Part shown: positions 1-26,815 of the stretch, piece by piece | How positions within the stretch are numbered: position 1 is the first letter of the stretch | How the letters are laid out: every line of letters begins with the position of its first letter | DNA from: Clostridium sp. AM34-11AC | GTDB lineage: Bacteria; Bacillota; Clostridia; Lachnospirales; Lachnospiraceae | Assembly: GCF_003435375.1 (NCBI RefSeq) | Contig: NZ_QWGL01000001.1 | Location: 248,001-312,000, forward strand | Length of the DNA: 64,000 bases | Reading direction: 5' to 3' | The notes under the pieces: model-generated | What the model saw: only the letters and a program-made list of their open reading frames with translations | Told to the model about the DNA's origin: nothing | Databases searched by the model: none | Made by a program: the position numbers and the translations under genes

Positions 1-342
1 AGTGTCTGCGTTTCCTGTCGCTGATATATATTTTGTATAGTCAGGATCTCCCTGTACACTGACCTGGTTTTTTGCAAAGAAATCACTGTTTTTTAAGCTC
101 TTTGTTGCTGAATAGCTAAGGTAATTGTCCTGAAGATCTATGATCTTATTGCTGATAGAACGATATGCATCCCGCTTCCATTCCAGTTTTGTCATAGCCT
201 GCTTCTTGGCTGTGATCTTGGATGTTGTTCTTGCTGTCATCTGTTCGATCAGTGCATCCCTGTCAATACCGGAAGCTAAACCGCCATATCCTCTTAAAGC
301 TGTATTTCCAAGACTGCTGCTTGTTCTTGATACACTTGACAT
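1..342 (-). CDS. fliD: Flagellar hook-associated cap protein FliD, N-terminal part
   Basis: The first 114 codons of a gene that runs off the left edge of the window. The encoded N-terminus carries the FliD signature GGLASGIDRDALIEQM at about residues 20-35, followed by a basic, alpha-helical segment (KITAKKQAMTKLEWKRDAYR) that fits the D0 coiled coil of the filament cap. FliD caps the flagellar filament and helps flagellin fold as it exits. The ATG at 342-340 is preceded by GAAAGGAG with 8 nt spacing, which supports this start. It is the last gene of the flagellar run in this window and may have its own promoter in the 118-nt gap upstream. The identification is firm; the C-terminal part cannot be assessed. 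Confidence 0.88.
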   Translation of the reverse strand, partial: MSSVSRTSSSLGNTALRGYGGLASGIDRDALIEQMTARTTSKITAKKQAMTKLEWKRDAYRSISNKIIDLQDNYLSYSATKSLKNSDFFAKNQVSVQGDPDYTKYISATGNADT

Positions 343-439: not shown

Positions 440-463
440 ATTTCGGCGCAGCATGAAAATTTA
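440..463 (-). promoter_or_regulatory. Possible sigma-28 (FliA)-type promoter for fliD
   Basis: On the minus strand a GCCGAAAT box (440-447) resembles the sigma-28 -10 element GCCGATAT, with TATA 14 nt further upstream or TAAA 12 nt upstream as a poor -35. It lies at the end of the comFB-like gene and about 100 nt before the fliD start. FliD is a late flagellar gene and is often sigma-28 dependent, and a sigma-28 gene lies in the same operon. The match is incomplete, so this is a weak candidate. Confidence 0.3.
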
Positions 464-1192
464 TAAGATATGGCGTGGATGTTCTTTTACTTCCATACAG
501 GCTCTCATGGACTGACTTAAAACAGCCACACGGAATTTATTGCGGTAAAAGGTTAGCAGCATCGGGACTGTCGTATTATCTGCTACAATATATTTGGGCG
601 GCAGCCTGGTAAGCATCAGCGCTTTCACATCTGCCTGACAGCGGCTGCAGGTACAGGTATCATTACTTTTCAGTGCGTCAAGGATCAGTTCCGGAGTAAG
701 GATCTCCTCCATGATATTTACGACCCGGTAACTTGGACCATCTTCCTGCTTCTGCTCTTCCTGTTGTTCCGGTTCTTTCTGTACAGGTGTCCCTGCGTTT
801 GTTTTGGGCTGCTCTGTCTGTTCTTCTGTCTGTTCTTCTGTCTGTTCTTCCGGCTGTTCTTCCGGCTGTTCTTCCGGCTGTTCTTCCGACTGTTCTTCCG
901 GCTGTTCTTCCTGCTCCCCGGGCTGTTCTGCCTGCTCTTCTGTCTGTTCTTTTTCCAGCTCCTGGATCAGATTCTTCTGGATCTCTTCTGCCAGCTTTCC
1001 TTCTTCTCTTGGATCGACTACAGTCACATTAGCGGAAGGCACTCTTACCGGTTCTTCAGCAGCTGATCCTTCCTGCTGTGTTTCACCGGAAGCTGAAGAA
1101 GGCGGCTGTGTTTCGCCAGAAGACGCAACTGGCGGCTGTGAACCTGTGATAAGGTTCAGCACATGTGAGGTTTTATTTGTTTTTTTTGCCAT
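461..1192 (-). CDS. ComFB-domain protein with Glu/Gln-rich linker
   Basis: A 243-residue protein in three parts. Residues 1-17 (MAKKTNKTSHVLNLITG) form a basic, conserved-looking N-terminal peptide. Residues about 80-150 are a low-complexity run of E, Q, P and T. Residues about 155-235 are a late-competence ComFB domain: VVNIMEEILTPELI, the cysteines C180, C182 and C185 (CTCSRCQADVKAL) and LPPKY. ComFB proteins are cytoplasmic; members have been linked to cyclic-di-GMP binding and to control of motility, which suits a place at the end of a flagellar operon. It starts 1 nt after the parA stop, with GGGAG 7 nt upstream. A short basic N-terminal tail next to ParA is typical of ParA partner proteins, so it may be the ParA adaptor; that role is inferred. 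Confidence 0.75.
   Translation of the reverse strand: MAKKTNKTSHVLNLITGSQPPVASSGETQPPSSASGETQQEGSAAEEPVRVPSANVTVVDPREEGKLAEEIQKNLIQELEKEQTEEQAEQPGEQEEQPEEQSEEQPEEQPEEQPEEQTEEQTEEQTEQPKTNAGTPVQKEPEQQEEQKQEDGPSYRVVNIMEEILTPELILDALKSNDTCTCSRCQADVKALMLTRLPPKYIVADNTTVPMLLTFYRNKFRVAVLSQSMRACMEVKEHPRHIL
819..910 (-). repeat. 12-bp tandem repeat coding for EEQP/EEQT
   Basis: About seven copies of a 12-bp unit (plus strand TGTTCTTCCGGC or TGTTCTTCTGTC) inside the ComFB-domain gene, coding for EEQP/EEQT repeats. The unit length is a multiple of three, so copy-number change would lengthen or shorten the linker without shifting frame. The plus-strand open frames across this tract are shadows of the repeat. 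Confidence 0.8.
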
Positions 1193-1193
1193 A

Positions 1194-1964
1194 TTATTTC
1201 TCCCTGAAACCTATGATCTTTTCTACCTCATCTAAAAACTTTCCATAATCCTTTACAGCTGATGCTCTCGGACTGTACTCAAAAATACTTTCTCCATGGG
1301 CCGGTGCTTCCGCAATCGCCACTCCGGACCTTATTTTTGTGTCAAATACCCGGGTTTCCAGCTGCCCGGCCAGCTGCCCGGCCATTTCCAATACATCCCT
1401 GCAAAGACATGTTCTTGGATTAAAGCGGTTTAGCAGGATACCCATGATCTTAAGGCCGGGATTGATCTGTATGCGGACAGATTCTACTGTTTCCTTTAAC
1501 TGTGACAGACCAACCAGACTGAGGATATCCGATGCCATTGGTATAATAAGATAATCAGAAACTGCATATGCGTTAACTGTGAGAAGATTTAAGGCAGGGG
1601 GTGTATCGATCACAATATAGTCATAAAAATCCATAACTGGTTTTAAAACATTTTTTAAAATAGATTCTTTTTCTTCTCCCGGATTATACTCCAGACCACT
1701 GCTGCTTAATGTAATATCAGAAGGAAGGATATCGATCCCTTCTGTGCGGCTGATCGCCTTTTGTATGGATACATCTCCTTTTAATACATCCAGTATAGTA
1801 GATCCTCCTTCGGTATCCAGACCAAGGCAGAATCCAAGATTTCCCTGGGGATCCAGGTCTATACACAGAACCTTTTTACCTGCCATCGAAAATCCTGCAG
1901 CCAGCGCTGCTGATGTTGTGGTCTTTCCCACACCGCCTTTTTGATTTGAAACCGTAATGACCAT
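1194..1964 (-). CDS. ParA/Soj-family partitioning ATPase
   Basis: A 256-residue deviant Walker ATPase. It has the P-loop KGGVGKTTTSAALA at residues 9-22, the Walker A-prime DLDPQGN, Walker B YDYIVIDTPPALN, and the C-terminal ParA motif AIAEAPAHGESIFEYSPRASA. The form is ParA/Soj rather than MinD or FlhG: no C-terminal amphipathic helix is apparent and the PQGN motif is present. ParA ATPases position DNA or protein cargo on the nucleoid; some orphan ParAs place chemotaxis arrays. It lies downstream of the chemoreceptor gene and directly upstream of the ComFB-domain gene, so a role in placing chemotaxis or flagellar parts is plausible but inferred. AAAAGGAG lies 9 nt before the ATG. Confidence 0.88.
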   Translation of the reverse strand: MVITVSNQKGGVGKTTTSAALAAGFSMAGKKVLCIDLDPQGNLGFCLGLDTEGGSTILDVLKGDVSIQKAISRTEGIDILPSDITLSSSGLEYNPGEEKESILKNVLKPVMDFYDYIVIDTPPALNLLTVNAYAVSDYLIIPMASDILSLVGLSQLKETVESVRIQINPGLKIMGILLNRFNPRTCLCRDVLEMAGQLAGQLETRVFDTKIRSGVAIAEAPAHGESIFEYSPRASAVKDYGKFLDEVEKIIGFREK

Positions 1965-2025: not shown

Positions 2026-3165
2026 TTATTCTCCAAGGCGTTCCATAGATTCCTCTACCTGTTTTACCAGTTCCTGGATCTCCTGATATACAGCGGCTGA
2101 CTCATTTGCCATACGGCCGATCTCATCTGCTACAACACCAAAGCCTACACCTGCTTTTCCGGCACGGCCTGCTTCAATGGCTGCATTCAGGGAAAGCATT
2201 TTTTCCATCGTAGCCGTCTGCTCCAGTCCCTTTGCCTTATACTTGATCTGTCCTACTGCATCCCGTACTTTCTTTTCCTCTTTTGCAAATGCTTCTACGC
2301 TGTCTGCATTGCTCTTCCGGTAATAAAGGGCATTAGCCCACAGATTCAGCATCTCAGCTAAAAGCTGTCCACCGGCACTTACTACTTCCTGGCTTGGGGC
2401 TGAATCATCCGGGTAATCTCCAAGGACGATACCGCCGATCACTGTACCTGCACGGAATCCTCCTACTGTAAGATCCTGGGTAAACTCTCGCAGCTCATTA
2501 TGTTTTCCATTGGTATACCTGCTGTAAAAGCTGGTAAAGGAGTTTCCTCTCGTAATGTATTTTCCTTTCATATCCACTACTGCTGCTGTCATGCCTGTGA
2601 CCGTTAAAAACAGATCCTGGATCCGCTGAAGTTCTTTTATATCCAGGATCTGGCGGATATCCAGATTTTCTGTACTTTCATCTTTTGAAACGGTATCCAT
2701 ATAGGAAGTTTTCCCTGATACTGCTGATCCTGTTGCCGCTTTAGAAGCTGTATCTTCATTTTTGGTCCCATTCTGGATCCACTGGGCCAGCTTGCGGTCT
2801 GTTGCCCGGATATGCTTAACCAGCACGCTTACCATATAGTTGATCTCGCCCAGGGAATTGATCGTCGGACCTTCCTGCTCCATTTTTATAATGGCATCCC
2901 CCAGTTTCTGTTTATACCATTCATGAAATTTATGATGTTCTGTATATTCCGGATATTTTGACTGCTTCTGGAGATCCTCCTCATCTGAAAAGTGTTTCGT
3001 TACATATTCAACAAGAAATTCTCCCAGACTTGAGAGATTTTCTCTTCCCTTTCCCTTTGAGCATGCATCCAGAAGGGTATTGACTTTGTCAAAAATCTTC
3101 CTGTGCTCACTGTCGATCAGTTCATTTCCTGTTACAAGATCCTGTGTTAATACATATTTTTCCAT
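2026..3165 (-). CDS. Soluble chemoreceptor: bacteriohemerythrin, PocR-like and MCP signalling domains
   Basis: A 379-residue protein without membrane segments. Residues 1-130 are a bacteriohemerythrin domain with all expected di-iron ligands (H21, H58, E62, H77, H81, H118, D123), so it should bind oxygen or a related small ligand. Residues about 168-275 resemble a PocR sensory domain ([25 protein letters not shown]) but lack its usual cysteines and look degenerate. Residues about 290-379 hold the tip of a methyl-accepting chemotaxis domain ([26 protein letters not shown]) without long methylation helices. It is followed by parA and preceded by cheV. It probably feeds oxygen or redox information to CheA; the ligand and output are inferred. 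AGGAGG lies 9 nt before the start. Confidence 0.85.
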
Positions 3166-3179
3166 CCTTAGAGTCCTCC

Positions 3180-4118
3180 TTACTGCTGACTGTACTGTTT
3201 TTTAAAACGGGCAAGCAGTTCATCCATTACTGTGATCAGATGCCCGATCTCCGGCTTGGAAAGCTGTTCGTCTGCACCTAATTCTTTCCCCTTCTGCCTC
3301 ATCTGCTCATTGATCAGGGAAGAGAAGATGATAACCGGGATCTTCTTTAAATGTTCGTCATCCTTGATCAGCTTTGTAAGCCTGTGGCCATCCATTTCCG
3401 GCATTTCGATATCTGTAATGACCAGATTGACCTTATCATACAGATCAGAATCATTATGTATTTGTGAAAGGTAATCCCATGCCTCCTGGCCATTGGAAAA
3501 ATTCTTTACATTGGTAAATCCGGCTCTTTCCAGGGAATCATCGATCATTTTACTTAAAAGAATGGAATCTTCCGCGATCACAATAGGACTGTTGCAGATA
3601 GGGCGGTCTCCCATCTTATCTACATCTGCCACCTGTATAGTTGTTTCCGGTGCGATCTCTGCCACGATCTTTTCAAAATCCAGGATGATCACCAGCTCTT
3701 TTCCGCACTGGGCAATACCGGTAGCAACACTGTCATCTCCATTTGCAATGGTCTTATCTGGCTTCTGTATATCTTTCCATGAAATCCTGCTGATACCTTC
3801 GATGCTGTCTACCCGGAAAGCGACCGTCATTTTATTAAAATTTGTTACGATAAACAGATCTCTTGGCCCATTTTCCCGGTCATCTCCTGTAAGATATTTT
3901 GCCAGGTTGATCACTGTGATCAGCTCATCCCTTGGTTTAAAGATGCCTTCTACTGCCGGGTTTGCATGAGGCATCGGTTTTACCTTTTCACTCATGATGA
4001 TCTCCTGGACTTTTGCCACATTAATGCCATAAAATTCACCCATAACTGTGAATTTCATTACTTCAATCTCGTTTGTTCCTGATTCTAAAAGAATCCCTTC
4101 TTTTTCATTTTTGACCAT
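3180..4118 (-). CDS. cheV: Chemotaxis coupling protein CheV (CheW-receiver fusion)
   Basis: A 312-residue CheW domain (about 15-160; [24 protein letters not shown]) fused to a receiver domain (about 178-305). The receiver shows the acidic pair AED, the phosphorylation site in [12 protein letters not shown], and the conserved lysine in LSKPE. CheV couples receptors to the CheA kinase and uses phosphorylation of its receiver for adaptation. The length matches family members. It sits between cheD and the hemerythrin-type receptor gene in the operon. A GGAG ribosome site lies close upstream of the ATG. Confidence 0.93.
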
Positions 4119-4188
4119 GATCTTCTCTCCTTTTTTCTGTAAACAGGCATGCCACAGATGGTGACACCACCATAAATGAAAGCCCTGG

Positions 4189-4677
4189 CTATAGATGGCG
4201 TTCCGGTCGTCCCACTGTACGCACGATCACATCGCCTGTTGCAAGATCTAAAAGCATGGTACGGGCATAATTTCCTCCTGTATCCTCTGCTGCGATACAG
4301 ATTCCTTCCTGGGCCATGACTTTTTTTACACTTTCTGCATTTCTCTGCCCGATATTTCCAAAGCTGCTGTTTCCGCTGATCTCAAACATCTTGGCTCCCC
4401 CTGCAATCTTAACTACCATCCGGCTTTTTACCATACCGAATATTTTCAGCTTTCTGAGGGTTTCCCTGATGCCGCTGTCTGCAAATTTAAATGGATTGGA
4501 ATCCTTTCCTTCAAACTGTGCCGGAAGCATGATGTGCAGAAGTGCTCCCAGACGGGTAACCGGATCATAAAAGGTTATCCCGATACAGGAACCCAAAGCA
4601 TAGGTTATGATCCTTCCTTCCCCTCGTGAAAACTTCATATCACCGATTCCTACTTTTAATTCTGTGCCTCCGATCAT
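4189..4677 (-). CDS. cheD: Chemoreceptor glutamine deamidase CheD
   Basis: A 162-residue CheD. The catalytic cysteine is in YALGSCIGITFYDP and the catalytic histidine in LLHIMLPA; the downstream KIAGGAKMF motif is also present. CheD deamidates glutamines in chemoreceptors to glutamates and binds CheC, stimulating its phosphatase activity. The start codon shares one base with the stop codon of cheC (TAATG), so the two are translationally coupled, as expected for partners. GGGAG lies 7 nt upstream. Confidence 0.95.
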   Translation of the reverse strand: MIGGTELKVGIGDMKFSRGEGRIITYALGSCIGITFYDPVTRLGALLHIMLPAQFEGKDSNPFKFADSGIRETLRKLKIFGMVKSRMVVKIAGGAKMFEISGNSSFGNIGQRNAESVKKVMAQEGICIAAEDTGGNYARTMLLDLATGDVIVRTVGRPERHL

Positions 4678-5297
4678 TATGAAACTCCCAACCTCTCTAA
4701 AATATCGTTTAGAGAACGAATGTCCGGCAGCATGAGCAGCCAGTCAGAAAGTGCTTTTCCGCCGATCACAAAATCTGCATTGCAATACATCAGTTTATCT
4801 GTTTCATATCCATACTCAGCAATAGGTACCATTAAGATCCCACCCAGCATGTTGATGGTAGCACTTGGAACAGACAGTTCCACCTCTACATTTACAAGTT
4901 GTGAAAAAGCATTTATATAAGAACAGATAATGATGTTTCCTACTTCTACCAGTGCTGATCTGGCCATTTCGTCCATATCCAGAAAGGACTTATAACGGCT
5001 TCCAAGCAGTTTTTCCAATACCTCATTTGCAAAATCCAGGTCGAAAAGGAACAGCATCAACCCCTCAATATCACCTGACATTTTTACAAGGGCTGCTGCA
5101 ACAAGCTCCTCCGCATCACCGATCCGGTTCATGGCATCATTGTATCCAAGGATATTCACAGATGGGATCGAGATCCGGACTTCTTTCTGCAGAAGCTTGG
5201 AAAGAGCAGTTGCTGCATGACTAGTACCGATACTGCCGATCTCCCGCATTACATCCAGAGCCTGCAGGTCCATATCTTCATATCGCTTTATTTCCAT
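4677..5297 (-). CDS. cheC: CheY-P phosphatase CheC
   Basis: A 206-residue CheC with two phosphatase-type repeats. The second is canonical (ALVEVGNIIICSYINAF, with the E...N pair). In the first (DVMREIGSIGTSHAA) the usual catalytic Asn is replaced by Ser and the following GN by SH, so only the second site is likely active. CheC dephosphorylates CheY-P and is helped by CheD, whose gene follows directly. It is shorter than FliY, which carries the same fold upstream in this operon. Confidence 0.93.
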   Translation of the reverse strand: MEIKRYEDMDLQALDVMREIGSIGTSHAATALSKLLQKEVRISIPSVNILGYNDAMNRIGDAEELVAAALVKMSGDIEGLMLFLFDLDFANEVLEKLLGSRYKSFLDMDEMARSALVEVGNIIICSYINAFSQLVNVEVELSVPSATINMLGGILMVPIAEYGYETDKLMYCNADFVIGGKALSDWLLMLPDIRSLNDILERLGVS

Positions 5298-7735: not shown

Positions 7736-9859
7736 TTATGATCCTTTTTTCATTGTACTTATATTTCCAATTGACTGGATCTGCACATTATTTGCGATCT
7801 CATTAAATGAAAGCACCCTGATATTAGGATAAAAGGGTTCTACCAGATGGTAAAAATGGATCCTCATAACCTGTGAAGTCAGGATCACCGGATTCTGTGA
7901 TAAACCACTGAACTTTTTTATCTGCTCTGCCAGCTGCCGGATCACATGCTGGAGCATTTCCGGGTTTAATGCCAGATATAAGCCATTTTCCCCTTTTGAC
8001 AAGGATGCGACCATTTCCCGTTCCAGCTGGGCATCCAGTGTGATGACTTTCATGCATCCATCTGTACAGTACATGCGGGTAATGGTACGTTTAAGAGCTG
8101 TCCTGATCTTTTCTACTGTCTGGTCCAGCTCTCTTGGAGGAAGACCTGTTTCTGAGGCTGTCTGCATCAGATTCTCTACAATGGTCTCCAGGTCACGGAC
8201 CGGAATTCCTTCTTTTAGAAGGTTTGTAAGAACTCTCTGGAAATAACTGTAGCTGATCATCTGTGGTATTGCCTCTTCCACCAGCTCAGGAGCTGTTTTT
8301 TTCAGATTTTCCGTAAGCCTTACCACTTCCTGTCTTGTAAGCAGTTCGTATGAATGCTGCCGGATGACTTCTGAAAGATGCATGAGCAATACAGACAGAG
8401 GATCAATGACCGTATAACCATATAATTCAGCCCGATCTCTGTTTTCAGGCTTGATCCACCTGCTGGGTATACCGTATGCCGGTTCAATGGCCTCAATACC
8501 TTCAATTTCTTCTTCCACCTCCTCTGGTTCCAGAGCAAGGAAATAATCAATCAGGATCTCTCCTCCTGCAATTTCTTCTCCTTTTATCCGAATACTATAC
8601 TGACTTGGTCCCAGGGAAGAACTGTCCCGGAGCCGGATGGATGGGATCACAAATCCCATATCCTGGGCATATTGGCGGCGGAATATAACGATCCTGCTGA
8701 TCAGCCTTCCGCCTACTGACTCATCTGCCAGAGGGATCAGACTATAACCAAACTCGATCTCCACTGGCTCCAGTGTAAGAAGGCTGTATACATTATTTAC
8801 ATCTTTAAAATATTCTTCCTCACTTACTTCCTCTTTTGCAGCAGCTGCCTGAGCCTGTGGGGAATCCTGAAGCTGGGTAGAAGGAGCCATTGCCATTTGT
8901 GACAATGCCTGTGGCTCTTTTTTTATCTTTCCGGAAAGATAAAATCCGCTTCCCATAAGACATGCAGCCACAACCAGAGTCCTTACTGCCGGCATTCCAG
9001 GTATCACAGCCATGACCGCCACTGCTGCACCACTAACGATCATAGCATGAGGCTGGGCCAGAAACTGCTTTGATACATCTTCATTTAAGCTGCCTTCTGA
9101 AACAGCTCTTGTAACGATCATTCCTGTTGCAGTAGAAATAAGAAGAGCCGGTATCTGGGATACCAGACCATCACCTACTGTCGCAATGGAATAGGTACTC
9201 AGCACGGCTGAGATGCTGCTGCCGGACTGTACAATACCGATGATGCTGCCGCCGATCAGATTGATGGCAGTTGTGATAAGTGACATAACTGCATCACCCT
9301 TTACGATCTTAGTCGCACCATCCATTGCGCCATAAAAATCTGCTTCTCTCTGAACCTTGGCACGCCGTTCCTTTGCCTGTGTTTCATTGATCAGGCCAGA
9401 ACTAAGGTCTGCATCAATAGCCATCTGTTTTCCCGGCATGGCATCCAGATTAAATCTGGCTGCCACCTCTGCCACTCGTTCTGCACCTTTTGTGATAACA
9501 ATAAACTGCATCAACACGATGATCAGGAAGATGATCAGACCTACTACTACGTTTCCTCTTAAAACGAAATCACCAAAGGCAGCAATGACACGGCCTGATG
9601 AACCTCCCTGAGAAAGGATATTTCTCGTGGTTGAAACATTGATACCCAGACGGAACAGCGTGGTAATAAGCAAAAGAGAGGGGAATATGGAGAATTCCAA
9701 TGGCTCCCGAATGGTCATGGTTATTACCAGGATCATCATGGAAAGGGACATATTCAATATGATCGCCACATCCACCAGTCCCGCCGGAAGGGGAATGATC
9801 AAAAGCAATATGATCGTGATCACAAACATAACCACTGAGTAACTCAATAACCGTTTCAT
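7736..9859 (-). CDS. flhA: Flagellar export gate protein FlhA
   Basis: A 707-residue inner-membrane export protein. The N-terminal half (to about residue 320) has roughly eight membrane segments. The FHIPEP-family signature is present (RFNLDAMPGKQMAIDADLSS, followed by DFYGAMDGATKIVKGDA). The C-terminal half is the cytoplasmic substrate and chaperone docking domain. FlhA forms the nonameric ring of the flagellar type III export gate. I chose the ATG at 9859, with GGAG 12 nt upstream; a TTG at 9877 overlaps that site. flhB is 21 nt upstream. In many Firmicutes flhF and flhG follow flhA; here fliA follows directly. Confidence 0.96.
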   Translation of the reverse strand: MKRLLSYSVVMFVITIILLLIIPLPAGLVDVAIILNMSLSMMILVITMTIREPLEFSIFPSLLLITTLFRLGINVSTTRNILSQGGSSGRVIAAFGDFVLRGNVVVGLIIFLIIVLMQFIVITKGAERVAEVAARFNLDAMPGKQMAIDADLSSGLINETQAKERRAKVQREADFYGAMDGATKIVKGDAVMSLITTAINLIGGSIIGIVQSGSSISAVLSTYSIATVGDGLVSQIPALLISTATGMIVTRAVSEGSLNEDVSKQFLAQPHAMIVSGAAVAVMAVIPGMPAVRTLVVAACLMGSGFYLSGKIKKEPQALSQMAMAPSTQLQDSPQAQAAAAKEEVSEEEYFKDVNNVYSLLTLEPVEIEFGYSLIPLADESVGGRLISRIVIFRRQYAQDMGFVIPSIRLRDSSSLGPSQYSIRIKGEEIAGGEILIDYFLALEPEEVEEEIEGIEAIEPAYGIPSRWIKPENRDRAELYGYTVIDPLSVLLMHLSEVIRQHSYELLTRQEVVRLTENLKKTAPELVEEAIPQMISYSYFQRVLTNLLKEGIPVRDLETIVENLMQTASETGLPPRELDQTVEKIRTALKRTITRMYCTDGCMKVITLDAQLEREMVASLSKGENGLYLALNPEMLQHVIRQLAEQIKKFSGLSQNPVILTSQVMRIHFYHLVEPFYPNIRVLSFNEIANNVQIQSIGNISTMKKGS

Positions 9860-9880
9860 TCGTCCATTAATCTCCAACTA

Positions 9881-10954
9881 TTATTTTTTATCTTTATTTT
9901 TCCCGTTATCCTGTTTATACAGATATACCAGGATTTCTGCTACTGCCGTATAAAATTCTGAGGGGATCGGCCTGTCCAGTTCACAGGAATTGTACATAGC
10001 CCGTGCAAGTGGTTTATTTTCAATGGTATAAACATTGTTTTCTTCCCCCACCTTTACGATTCTTAACGCCAGTTCATCTAATCCCTTGGCAAGTACTACC
10101 GGAGCATTGTCATGATCAGGATCATATTTTAAAGCAATGGCCACATGGGTAGGATTTCGTATGATCACATCTGCCTGGGGAACCTTCTGCATCATCCTGC
10201 TGGATGCCATCTGACGCTGCAGGCTTTTGATCCTGTTTTTAATCTCAGGATTACCTTCTGTCTGTTTATACTCATCTTTTACTTCCTGCTTTGTCATGCG
10301 AAGCTCTTTTTCATATTCCCAGCGCTGATACAGATAATCGCCAAAGGCAATGACCATAAAGGCAATACATACACGTATCAGCAGATCAAAGATCATTTTC
10401 ATCATATAAGCCGCAGATGCTGCAGGACTCATATCGATCATTGATGCCATGGGCTGCAGATCCTGCTTCAGTATGTTGTAAAGCAATACCAGCAGCAGTG
10501 TTATCTTGATGGAGTTTTTCACCAACTCTACTGCATTTTTCATGGAAAACAGACGTTTTATGCCTGAAAGAGGATTAAGCCTGTTCCATTTTGGCCGGAT
10601 GGATTTAAAGGATACATTAAAACGTGTTTGTACTCCATGCGCCACAATTCCAAGTAAAAGGGCTAAAAGCAACAGAGGAAGCGCACATTTTAAAAACACA
10701 GACAGTGTAACAAAAACAAGGCTGGCTGAAAGCATATCTTCTGAGGACCGGGCTGCTCCATCTATGACCCAGGTCATATAATTTTTCATCTGTCCATATA
10801 TAAAAGGAAGCCATATGCGGATCCCGAAAAATATGCCAGCCAAGATCACTACGGTAGCTACATCCCTGCTTTGGAAGATATTTCCTTCTTTTCTGGCATC
10901 CCGCCGCTTTTTGGCGGTAGGCTGTTCGGTTTTCTCCTGGCCACTCTGTCCCAT
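9881..10954 (-). CDS. flhB: Flagellar export switch protein FlhB
   Basis: A 357-residue export protein: basic N-terminus (KTEQPTAKKRRDARKEGNIF), four membrane segments between about residues 30 and 210, then a cytoplasmic domain with the autocleavage motif NPTH (VIIRNPTHVAIALKYD). FlhB switches export from rod/hook to filament substrates together with FliK. The full length and the intact NPTH site suggest it is functional. It lies between fliR and flhA, the usual order, with AGGAG 11 nt before the start. Confidence 0.96.
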   Translation of the reverse strand: MGQSGQEKTEQPTAKKRRDARKEGNIFQSRDVATVVILAGIFFGIRIWLPFIYGQMKNYMTWVIDGAARSSEDMLSASLVFVTLSVFLKCALPLLLLALLLGIVAHGVQTRFNVSFKSIRPKWNRLNPLSGIKRLFSMKNAVELVKNSIKITLLLVLLYNILKQDLQPMASMIDMSPAASAAYMMKMIFDLLIRVCIAFMVIAFGDYLYQRWEYEKELRMTKQEVKDEYKQTEGNPEIKNRIKSLQRQMASSRMMQKVPQADVIIRNPTHVAIALKYDPDHDNAPVVLAKGLDELALRIVKVGEENNVYTIENKPLARAMYNSCELDRPIPSEFYTAVAEILVYLYKQDNGKNKDKK

Positions 10955-21032: not shown

Positions 21033-21491
21033 CTAGATTACCTCCCTGTTTTGAGAATATCTGGCTGTTCTTGAAGCAAATTCTTCTATAAACAGCTCCT
21101 GTGCCTTTTTAGCAGCTTTTTCATACTCACTCTGCCGCCTGTCCTTTAACTTTTCATAACGGGACGTATCTATCTTTGCAGCGATCACCTGTACTTTTTT
21201 CTTTTCTTCTTGCTGCTGTAAAAGCTTTAACTGTTCCTGTTTTTTCCGGATCTGATTTTCCATTTCACTGATATACATACCATAAAGACAAATATCTTTT
21301 ATCTGTACATCCTGTTTTTTCAAATCATCCATCTTATTCTGGGCAGATACCAGCTTGTTCTCCAGTTCCTGTATCTCTGCTTCTTTTTTCCGGATCTGTG
21401 CCAGAAGTGTACCATGTTCTGCCTTAATGCTGTCCAGAATCTGTTCCTTATAATGAAGTACATTTTCAAGACTGTATTTAAATCTCTTCAT
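21033..21491 (-). CDS. fliJ: Flagellar export chaperone FliJ
   Basis: A 152-residue, almost wholly coiled-coil protein beginning MKRFKYSLENVLHYKEQILD, the typical FliJ N-terminus. FliJ links the FliI ATPase to FlhA. I place the start at 21491, where GGAG lies 12 nt upstream; an ATG four codons earlier directly abuts the same site. Position between fliI and fliK is the usual one. Confidence 0.88.
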   Translation of the reverse strand: MKRFKYSLENVLHYKEQILDSIKAEHGTLLAQIRKKEAEIQELENKLVSAQNKMDDLKKQDVQIKDICLYGMYISEMENQIRKKQEQLKLLQQQEEKKKVQVIAAKIDTSRYEKLKDRRQSEYEKAAKKAQELFIEEFASRTARYSQNREVI

Positions 21492-21515
21492 CTTAAGTAT
21501 CATCTCCTATAACTG

Positions 21516-26497: not shown

Positions 26498-26815
26498 TTA
26501 AACACTCATCTTTAAAATTTCGTTATACGCTTCCATTGCTTTATTTCTAAGAGAGATCATAACTTCCAGGCTCAGTTCTGCTTTTGCCTGGGCGATTGGA
26601 AGACTGTGGGCATCTTCTAACTGCCCCGTTGCCAGAAGATACTGTTTCTGTTCTACATCCTTCTGTGTGTCATAAACATTTTGCACTGTATCTTCAAGCA
26701 CTGACTGGAACACAGATTTTGTGCCATTTTCTGTTCCTGTTATTTTTTTATCATTCTTTTCAACAGCATCCCACCCTTTCATAGGGGTAATAAACCCATT
26801 CACCTGTTCAATCAT
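26498..26815 (-). CDS. fliE: Flagellar hook-basal body protein FliE
   Basis: A 105-residue protein. The C-terminal half carries the FliE signature: LPIAQAKAELSLEVMISLRN then KAMEAYNEILKM. FliE joins the MS-ring to the rod. It follows flgB directly; flgC, which normally lies between flgB and fliE, is elsewhere in the operon. AAGGAG lies 10 nt before the ATG. Confidence 0.92.
   Translation of the reverse strand: MIEQVNGFITPMKGWDAVEKNDKKITGTENGTKSVFQSVLEDTVQNVYDTQKDVEQKQYLLATGQLEDAHSLPIAQAKAELSLEVMISLRNKAMEAYNEILKMSV

Follow-up and report, generated by a model that had tools for sequence, protein, structure and literature searches.

A ParA-type ATPase paired with a ComFB-domain protein as a candidate positioning module of FlhF/FlhG-less clostridial flagellar clusters

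Within a flagellar gene cluster of Clostridium sp. AM34-11AC, a gene for a ParA-type ATPase lies directly beside a gene for a protein that ends in a ComFB domain. Both are found in a 64,000-nucleotide stretch (contig NZ_QWGL01000001.1, positions 248,001 to 312,000; hereafter the window), in which the ATPase (256 aa, 1194..1964, open reading frame call) and its partner (243 aa, 461..1192; open reading frame call, Pfam, alignment and AlphaFold2 model) are encoded on the minus strand, with only base 1193 between the ParA stop and the ComFB start. The two genes are conserved together in flagellar clusters that are devoid of FlhF and FlhG, and the N-terminal peptide of the partner has disappeared where ParA has been lost. 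At roughly even confidence, we favor the interpretation that the pair is a dedicated ParA/adaptor module of one deep FlhF/FlhG-less clostridial flagellar lineage, which would space or count flagella. The original prediction, made from the window alone, had described a Soj-like ParA followed after 1 nt by a protein with a basic peptide, an E/Q-rich linker and a ComFB domain, and the open reading frames, Pfam matches and composition agree with this description.

Genome G001, the nearest relative (its ParA is 97% identical over 256 residues), served as a stand-in for the genome of the window, and 299 genomes from the family of G001 (the family sample) were swept without the use of any N-terminal motif for retrieval. 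FlhA is present in 153 of these genomes, and FlhF in 127 at E-values up to 1e-30, 125 of them over the family cut-off; one genome, G289, has FlhF and no FlhA match. The 153 FlhA-bearing genomes therefore divide into 126 with FlhF and 27 without. Twenty-five of the 27 carry a ComFB protein, in every case near a flagellar gene in the examined stretch, and in 22 of the 27 (22/25 of the ComFB carriers) ParA is adjacent to it. The pair is found in none of the 126 genomes that possess both FlhF and FlhA, whose ComFB genes have no ParA within 400 nt, nor in any of the 146 genomes without FlhA. The association of a flagellar ComFB with the absence of FlhF gives a Fisher p of 1e-26, with kinship ignored. 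Similarly, ParA adjoins ComFB in 31 of 34 related loci, which were partly retrieved by the pattern MAKKTNKT and include the near-copies L019 and L020; two of the three exceptions begin at a contig edge and the third retains a ParA remnant. The expectation that the two genes would be conserved as neighbors is thus borne out in both sets. A FliD relative, on either strand, occurs in 24 of the 34 loci (printed stretch) and in 24 of 25 family-sample stretches. The ComFB family PF10719 itself is more widespread, at 49 places in 46 of the 299 genomes, and the ComFB proteins of FlhF-bearing genomes are 88-131 aa long, except for frames of 221-230 aa in G097, G205 and G303. By eye, the starts of these three frames (L068, L069 and L072) resemble response-regulator receivers, and in G049 (L058/L091) two short ComFB genes stand in tandem.

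Neither FlhF nor FlhG could be found alongside the pair. Against the 64-kb window, an FlhF query returned zero matches at E up to 10 and the sole match of an FlhG query was ParA itself, at 19.6 bits, in keeping with the claim that both are missing from the window. The original prediction had allowed for their presence elsewhere; both are missing from the pair-carrying genomes as well. In 18 such genomes, no FlhF match exceeds the cut-off of 174 bits, and the matches at E < 0.001 were rejected at 84 bits or less, the best of them being presumably Ffh/FtsY. Among the 27 FlhF-less genomes, none gives an FlhG-level score except G216 (G121 gives a 79-bit match), compared with 286-454 bits for FlhG in four FlhF-bearing controls. 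The partial FlhG of G216 lies at a contig end, and this is therefore probably a gapped FlhF/FlhG genome; together with G166, it accounts for the two FlhF-less genomes without a ComFB protein. A tree of FlhA was built from the window, 23 of the 27 FlhF-less genomes (G124, G180, G216 and G242 were left out) and 12 of the 126 FlhF-bearing genomes. One branch with 100/100 support separates the FlhF-less rows, including the window, from the 12 FlhF-bearing rows. Given this single deep split, the FlhF contrast amounts in effect to one evolutionary event.

The partner begins with an N-terminal peptide (residues 1-17, MAKKTNKTSHVLNLITG; 1142..1192, minus strand), which carries a net charge of +3 and contains no E or Q. 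In the 28 rows of alignment A1, comprising the window and 27 of the 34 loci, its mean pairwise identity is 0.78, compared with 0.18-0.20 in most of the linker. In the AlphaFold2 model this region is flexible or weakly modelled, with a predicted local distance difference test score of about 63-65 and a short helix at residues 7-16. In the family sample, all 22 ParA-linked flagellar ComFB proteins bear an N-terminal motif of either of two kinds: class 1, [KR][TS][NS]KTx[HY]V, in 19, and class 2, DKE(I/M)MYRKIMP, in three (G033, G064 and G165). The motif of L066 was identified by eye, outside the script. Class 2 accompanies a distinct ParA subclade. Conversely, none of the three flagellar ComFB proteins without ParA (G179, G284 and G310) has either motif, while all three retain the ComFB domain and, by eye, the mid-linker segment. 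Their loci have no space for ParA and no Walker A or motif trace, and elsewhere in these genomes no ParA scores above 173 bits, against 237-531 bits for flagellar ParAs (the whole-genome search covered 16 genomes). On the FlhA tree, G284 groups with its sister G310, the ParA-bearing G195 being their neighbor, and G179 stands separately; ParA has therefore been lost at least twice independently. The peptide-ParA association has a Fisher p of 4e-4, which is overstated in that kin are counted as independent. Since the peptide is present only where ParA is present, this natural covariation ties the one to the other and, together with its conservation, suggests that the peptide is the ParA-contacting, ATPase-activating element.

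In G166, a relative of the class-2 genomes, the ParA and ComFB genes are both missing together. A phosphomethylpyrimidine-kinase-like gene stands directly before the class-2 pair of G064 (L114, 8806-9642), within the flagellar cluster, and from the gene order, by eye, it seems absent from the corresponding stretch of G166 along with the pair. Both motif classes occur in Eisenbergiella tayi (G009, L017/L038), where one contig holds two FlhA genes separated by about 43 kb and, some 5 to 13 kb from these, one ParA-ComFB pair of each N-terminal class; this genome apparently contains two flagellar systems. Another genome, G010, has three FlhA matches, two long-frame ComFB proteins and a short one, which points to a mixed bin or to several flagellar clusters. 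Sampling of 391 genomes across Clostridia added three carriers (G430, G471 and G553), each with the motif, ParA, FliD and FlhA, although FlhF was not searched for in these three; in G430 the motif has R in place of H. ComFB occurs in 112 genomes of this sample; the places inspected were those whose open frame exceeds 200 aa, together with G400. In G395, a short ComFB runs into masked bases. The pair is also carried by L031 and L033, deposited as Firmicutes/Bacillota bacteria, with no FlhF over the cut-off in their genomes (G016 and G018).

Beyond the peptide, the partner contains a long linker with a second conserved element, a predicted helix at residues 61-88 (929..1012, minus strand; AlphaFold2 model) just past a VVDP segment. 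Mean identity rises to 0.42 over residues 46-80, and the element is retained, by eye, in the ParA-less loci L076, L084 and L087. Residues 89-153 are 62% E/Q with a net charge of -22, and are encoded in part by a 12-bp tandem repeat specifying EEQP-type units (818..915, minus strand; Tandem Repeats Finder: period 12, 8.2 copies, 94% matches). A protein search with the N-terminal peptide gave 1349 matches; of the best 120, 119 carry PF10719 (P0071 has no listed domain), and 105 differ in length from the window protein by zero or a multiple of four residues. These multiple-of-four differences suggest that linker length drifts by repeat number.

The ComFB domain (residues 154-243; 464..733, minus strand) is matched by PF10719 over residues 158-239 (E 2.9e-12, 46.9 bits versus a cut-off of 25), accounts for most of the confidently modelled part of the AlphaFold2 model, and has its fold in common with 8hja. 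Its predicted zinc ligands, the CxCxxC cysteines C180, C182 and C185 (638..655, minus strand), are present in every one of the 28 rows of A1 and align with the CTCxxC of 4wai, in which C25, C27 and C30 are zinc ligands (PMC4381287). In B. subtilis ComFB the zinc site consists of four cysteines; candidates for the fourth ligand here are C232, which is nearly invariant in A1, and H241, which is invariant. Class-2 proteins also terminate in the histidine of the PRH/PHH ending, and have no cysteine at the place of C232. The C-terminal histidine may be the fourth ligand, giving a CCCH site. ComFB is the only domain over the Pfam cut-off, with no CheW, CheA or MCP domain and, at E up to 0.1, no ParB match. 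None of the NCBIfam families shown reached its cut-off (competence ComFB, NF052654, 30.3 versus 120 bits), and no phage-protein family matched.

The ATPase matches AAA_31 (E 2.2e-52) and is Soj-like by fold and sequence, without an N-terminal helix-turn-helix. Its deviant Walker A, KGGVGKT (residues 9-15; 1920..1940, minus strand), which is conserved in flagellar and Soj-like rows alike, includes the signature lysine of small Soj-type ParA proteins. Flagellar ParAs form a clade separate from the Soj-like ParAs encoded elsewhere in the same genomes, with support of 100/100 when nine MinD/FlhG-like or long-branch rows are dropped; with those rows, in an earlier tree built without 16 named loci and without identical sequences, support for the flagellar group was only 25. 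A plasmid-like or chromosome-partition role, which the original prediction had considered, is unlikely and was rejected in light of this separation and of the restriction of the pair to FlhA-bearing genomes of the family sample. ParA falls below the cut-off of every NCBIfam family among the best 25 of 29 matches, and in a hydrophobic-moment scan for a C-terminal membrane helix, ParA and FlhG could not be distinguished. When aligned with ParA/Soj proteins of solved structure, the arginines of IRSGVAIAEAP and NPRT fall at or close to arginines of those proteins, and R184 and R212 are nearly invariant in alignment A2 (the window and 15 loci), R184 being replaced by K in L038. Such arginines of Soj bind DNA.

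A working cycle can be proposed from these features. ParA-ATP dimers would bind a matrix, probably the nucleoid, while the partner would dimerize via its zinc-ComFB domain, so that two flexible basic peptides are presented. Docking of these peptides on ParA dimers would bring about ATP hydrolysis and release, and the ComFB domain, together with the conserved mid-linker helix, would attach to the cargo, most likely a newly forming flagellar basal body, or its C-ring and switch proteins. The pair would in this way space or count flagella, as FlhF and FlhG do elsewhere, possibly with modulation by a cyclic dinucleotide bound to the ComFB domain.

That a ComFB domain might connect the pair to cyclic di-GMP (c-di-GMP) had been part of the original prediction. 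This holds insofar as published relatives bind c-di-GMP, but c-di-GMP alone is too narrow, since such relatives bind cyclic di-AMP (c-di-AMP) as well: cyanobacterial ComFB is dimeric and binds c-di-AMP with a dissociation constant of 2.6 uM and c-di-GMP with similar affinity (PMC12313861). In B. subtilis, deletion of ComFB leaves DNA uptake unaffected (PMC4381287). Diguanylate cyclase domains are present in all 27 genomes searched, and the gene immediately ahead of the pair encodes PilZ in L031 and in L033, and EAL-HDOD in L017; this context is suggestive only of a second-messenger link. The ComFB domain of the partner may likewise bind a cyclic dinucleotide. A more far-reaching version, which is possible and put forward tentatively, holds that the pair is a flagellar positioning or number system replacing FlhF/FlhG throughout an entire gut clostridial lineage, in which a cyclic-dinucleotide-binding ComFB dimer would serve as both ParA activator and cargo adaptor, such that c-di-GMP or c-di-AMP gates the ParA cycle directly. 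Where two peptide versions coexist, as they do in E. tayi, they would prevent two flagellar systems from mixing. Overall, the interpretation offered by the original prediction is partly supported.

Several observations weigh against a dedicated flagellar module. The contrast between FlhF and the pair maps to a single split in the FlhA tree, so that ancestry, and not replacement, could account for it. Furthermore, flagellar genes are present in G166, which has neither FlhF nor the pair, and in G179, G284 and G310, where ComFB persists but ParA is gone; a genome can therefore possess flagellar genes without the module. Clostridia commonly encode short ComFB proteins, which implies that the domain has other uses. 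The coupling of peptide and ParA has one exception, L032 (G017), where a short ParA start is followed by a ComFB gene with the motif. In that locus (9790-10291), the ParA start, with its Walker A, reaches a stop and the open ComFB gene comes next; the remnant reflects either a recent deletion or an assembly fault. Finally, of the 25 family-sample stretches (some of them short), 17 have a CheC, CheD or CheW-REC relative close to ComFB, and two of the four genomes in which ParA is missing or incomplete, G179 and G017, are without CheA and CheW as well.

The last two points, along with che relatives in many of the 34 loci and the precedents of PpfA and ParC (PMC9178275, PMC10241942), raise the question as to whether the pair segregates or positions chemotaxis arrays, like ParC/ParP or PpfA/TlpT, rather than flagella. 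This is the strongest of the alternatives, but it is nonetheless unlikely. The pair persists in the draft genome G033, in which neither CheA nor CheW was found, and G064 and G165, its class-2 kin, show CheW/CheA-type matches only at other loci. Conversely, G284 and G310 possess CheA and CheW and yet have no ParA. In L019, the pair adjoins flgF/G-type and fliD genes with no che relative in the printed stretch, and the partner is devoid of the CheW, CheA or MCP domains of the array systems. In addition, in the family sample the pair occurs only in FlhA-bearing genomes from which FlhF/FlhG are missing, and each of the two E. tayi flagellar systems seems to have its own pair. Flagella are thus placed ahead of chemotaxis arrays as the cargo, though not safely, as the evidence is mixed. 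Less probable still is that the pair, under the control of a second messenger, regulates flagellar gene expression, export or motor output, like FleN-FleQ or BcsQ-BcsE. The PilZ and EAL-HDOD neighbors are consistent with such a role, as is the finding that cyanobacterial ComFB, a c-di-AMP/c-di-GMP binder, can work via a transcription factor (PMC12313861, PMC13075795), and the persistence of ComFB and the mid-linker segment after ParA loss implies some ParA-independent job. Lastly, that ParA and ComFB are linked by inherited gene order alone, with no joint action, is very improbable: although the FlhF-less rows are one flagellar lineage on the FlhA tree, so that conserved order weighs less than its count suggests, the order held while the cluster was rearranged, with FliD on either side and either strand, the motif is missing in both independent ParA losses and varies with the ParA subclade, and G166 is without both genes together.

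The flagellar module favored here can be compared with several known systems. Like FlhG, ParA is a member of the ParA/MinD superfamily encoded in a flagellar cluster, and in the family sample FlhF-FlhG and the pair are mutually exclusive. However, the pair includes no signal recognition particle-type GTPase, no flhF lies alongside, and the FlhG query scores poorly on ParA; the N-terminal DQAxxLR extension of FlhG (PMC12826062) is missing from ParA, which starts MVITVSNQKGG, whereas the FlhG of L093 begins MDQAEQLR. With ParC-ParP and PpfA-TlpT the pair shares an orphan ParA in a motility operon and a partner that uses an N-terminal segment (in part from PMC10241942), yet that partner is here a ComFB protein and not a CheW/CheA-like protein or chemoreceptor. 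The basic peptide may act as in McdA-McdB and ParA-ParB, where a positively charged, disordered N-terminus of the partner probably contacts and stimulates ParA (PMC10241942), but the pair is without a ParB domain and its candidate cargo genes are flagellar. Unlike in B. subtilis ComFB and cyanobacterial ComFB/CdgR, the domain is preceded by a ParA-type N-terminal peptide and a long acidic linker, and unlike in B. subtilis the operon is flagellar rather than one for competence. BcsQ-BcsE also couples a ParA-superfamily ATPase to a c-di-GMP-binding partner in a surface-structure operon, but BcsQ belongs to another ParA branch and the fold of BcsE differs from that of ComFB. ParA-type positioning with a charged N-terminal activator is therefore of a known kind (PMC10241942); what appears to be new here is ComFB as the ParA partner and a ParA system in FlhF/FlhG-less flagellar clusters, no instance of either having been found in the open-licence literature searched.

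The pair belongs to a nearly continuous run of flagellar and chemotaxis genes on the minus strand, from about 27.2 kb to position 461. Families in this run were computed with Pfam for all frames except 21033-21503 and 26498-26815. The run presumably encodes a rod protein, FliF, FliG, FliH, a FliI-type ATPase, FliK, FlgD and an FlgE-type hook protein, followed by what we take to be MotA, MotB, FliM, a CheY-type receiver, CheC-FliN, FliP, FliR, FlhB and FlhA, and then presumably a sigma factor, FlgF/G-type proteins, CheC, CheD, CheW-REC and a methyl-accepting chemotaxis protein (MCP). The original prediction had placed the pair at the end of a flagellar operon. It does lie within the flagellar run, but the N-terminus of FliD (1..342, minus strand; PF02465, E 3e-10), which continues past the window edge, follows on the same strand, so that the pair is near, and not strictly at, the end. 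The upstream context (2026..5297, minus strand; Pfam) comprises an MCP with hemerythrin and PocR domains, a CheW-REC protein, CheD and CheC. Directly before ParA, the MCP (2026-3165) combines a hemerythrin domain at its N-terminus with part of a PocR sensory domain, and is possibly an oxygen- or redox-sensing receptor; it was rejected as a regular part of the system, with relatives only in L001 and partially L023 among the printed stretches of the 34 loci. Consensus promoters and terminators near the pair show no excess over shuffles.

A 2025 review of FlhF/FlhG notes that flagellated bacteria without both exist, and asks whether the pattern of enteric gamma-proteobacteria is regulated or random; a search of it for the word stems of Clostridia and of c-di-GMP gave no occurrence (PMC12826062). 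The pair described here is a concrete candidate for the missing flagellar-pattern system in a gut clostridial lineage, and the defined candidate activator peptide, the natural loss variants and the two sub-classes make the question directly testable. Should the ComFB domain bind a cyclic dinucleotide, the pair would couple a ParA positioning cycle directly to a second messenger.
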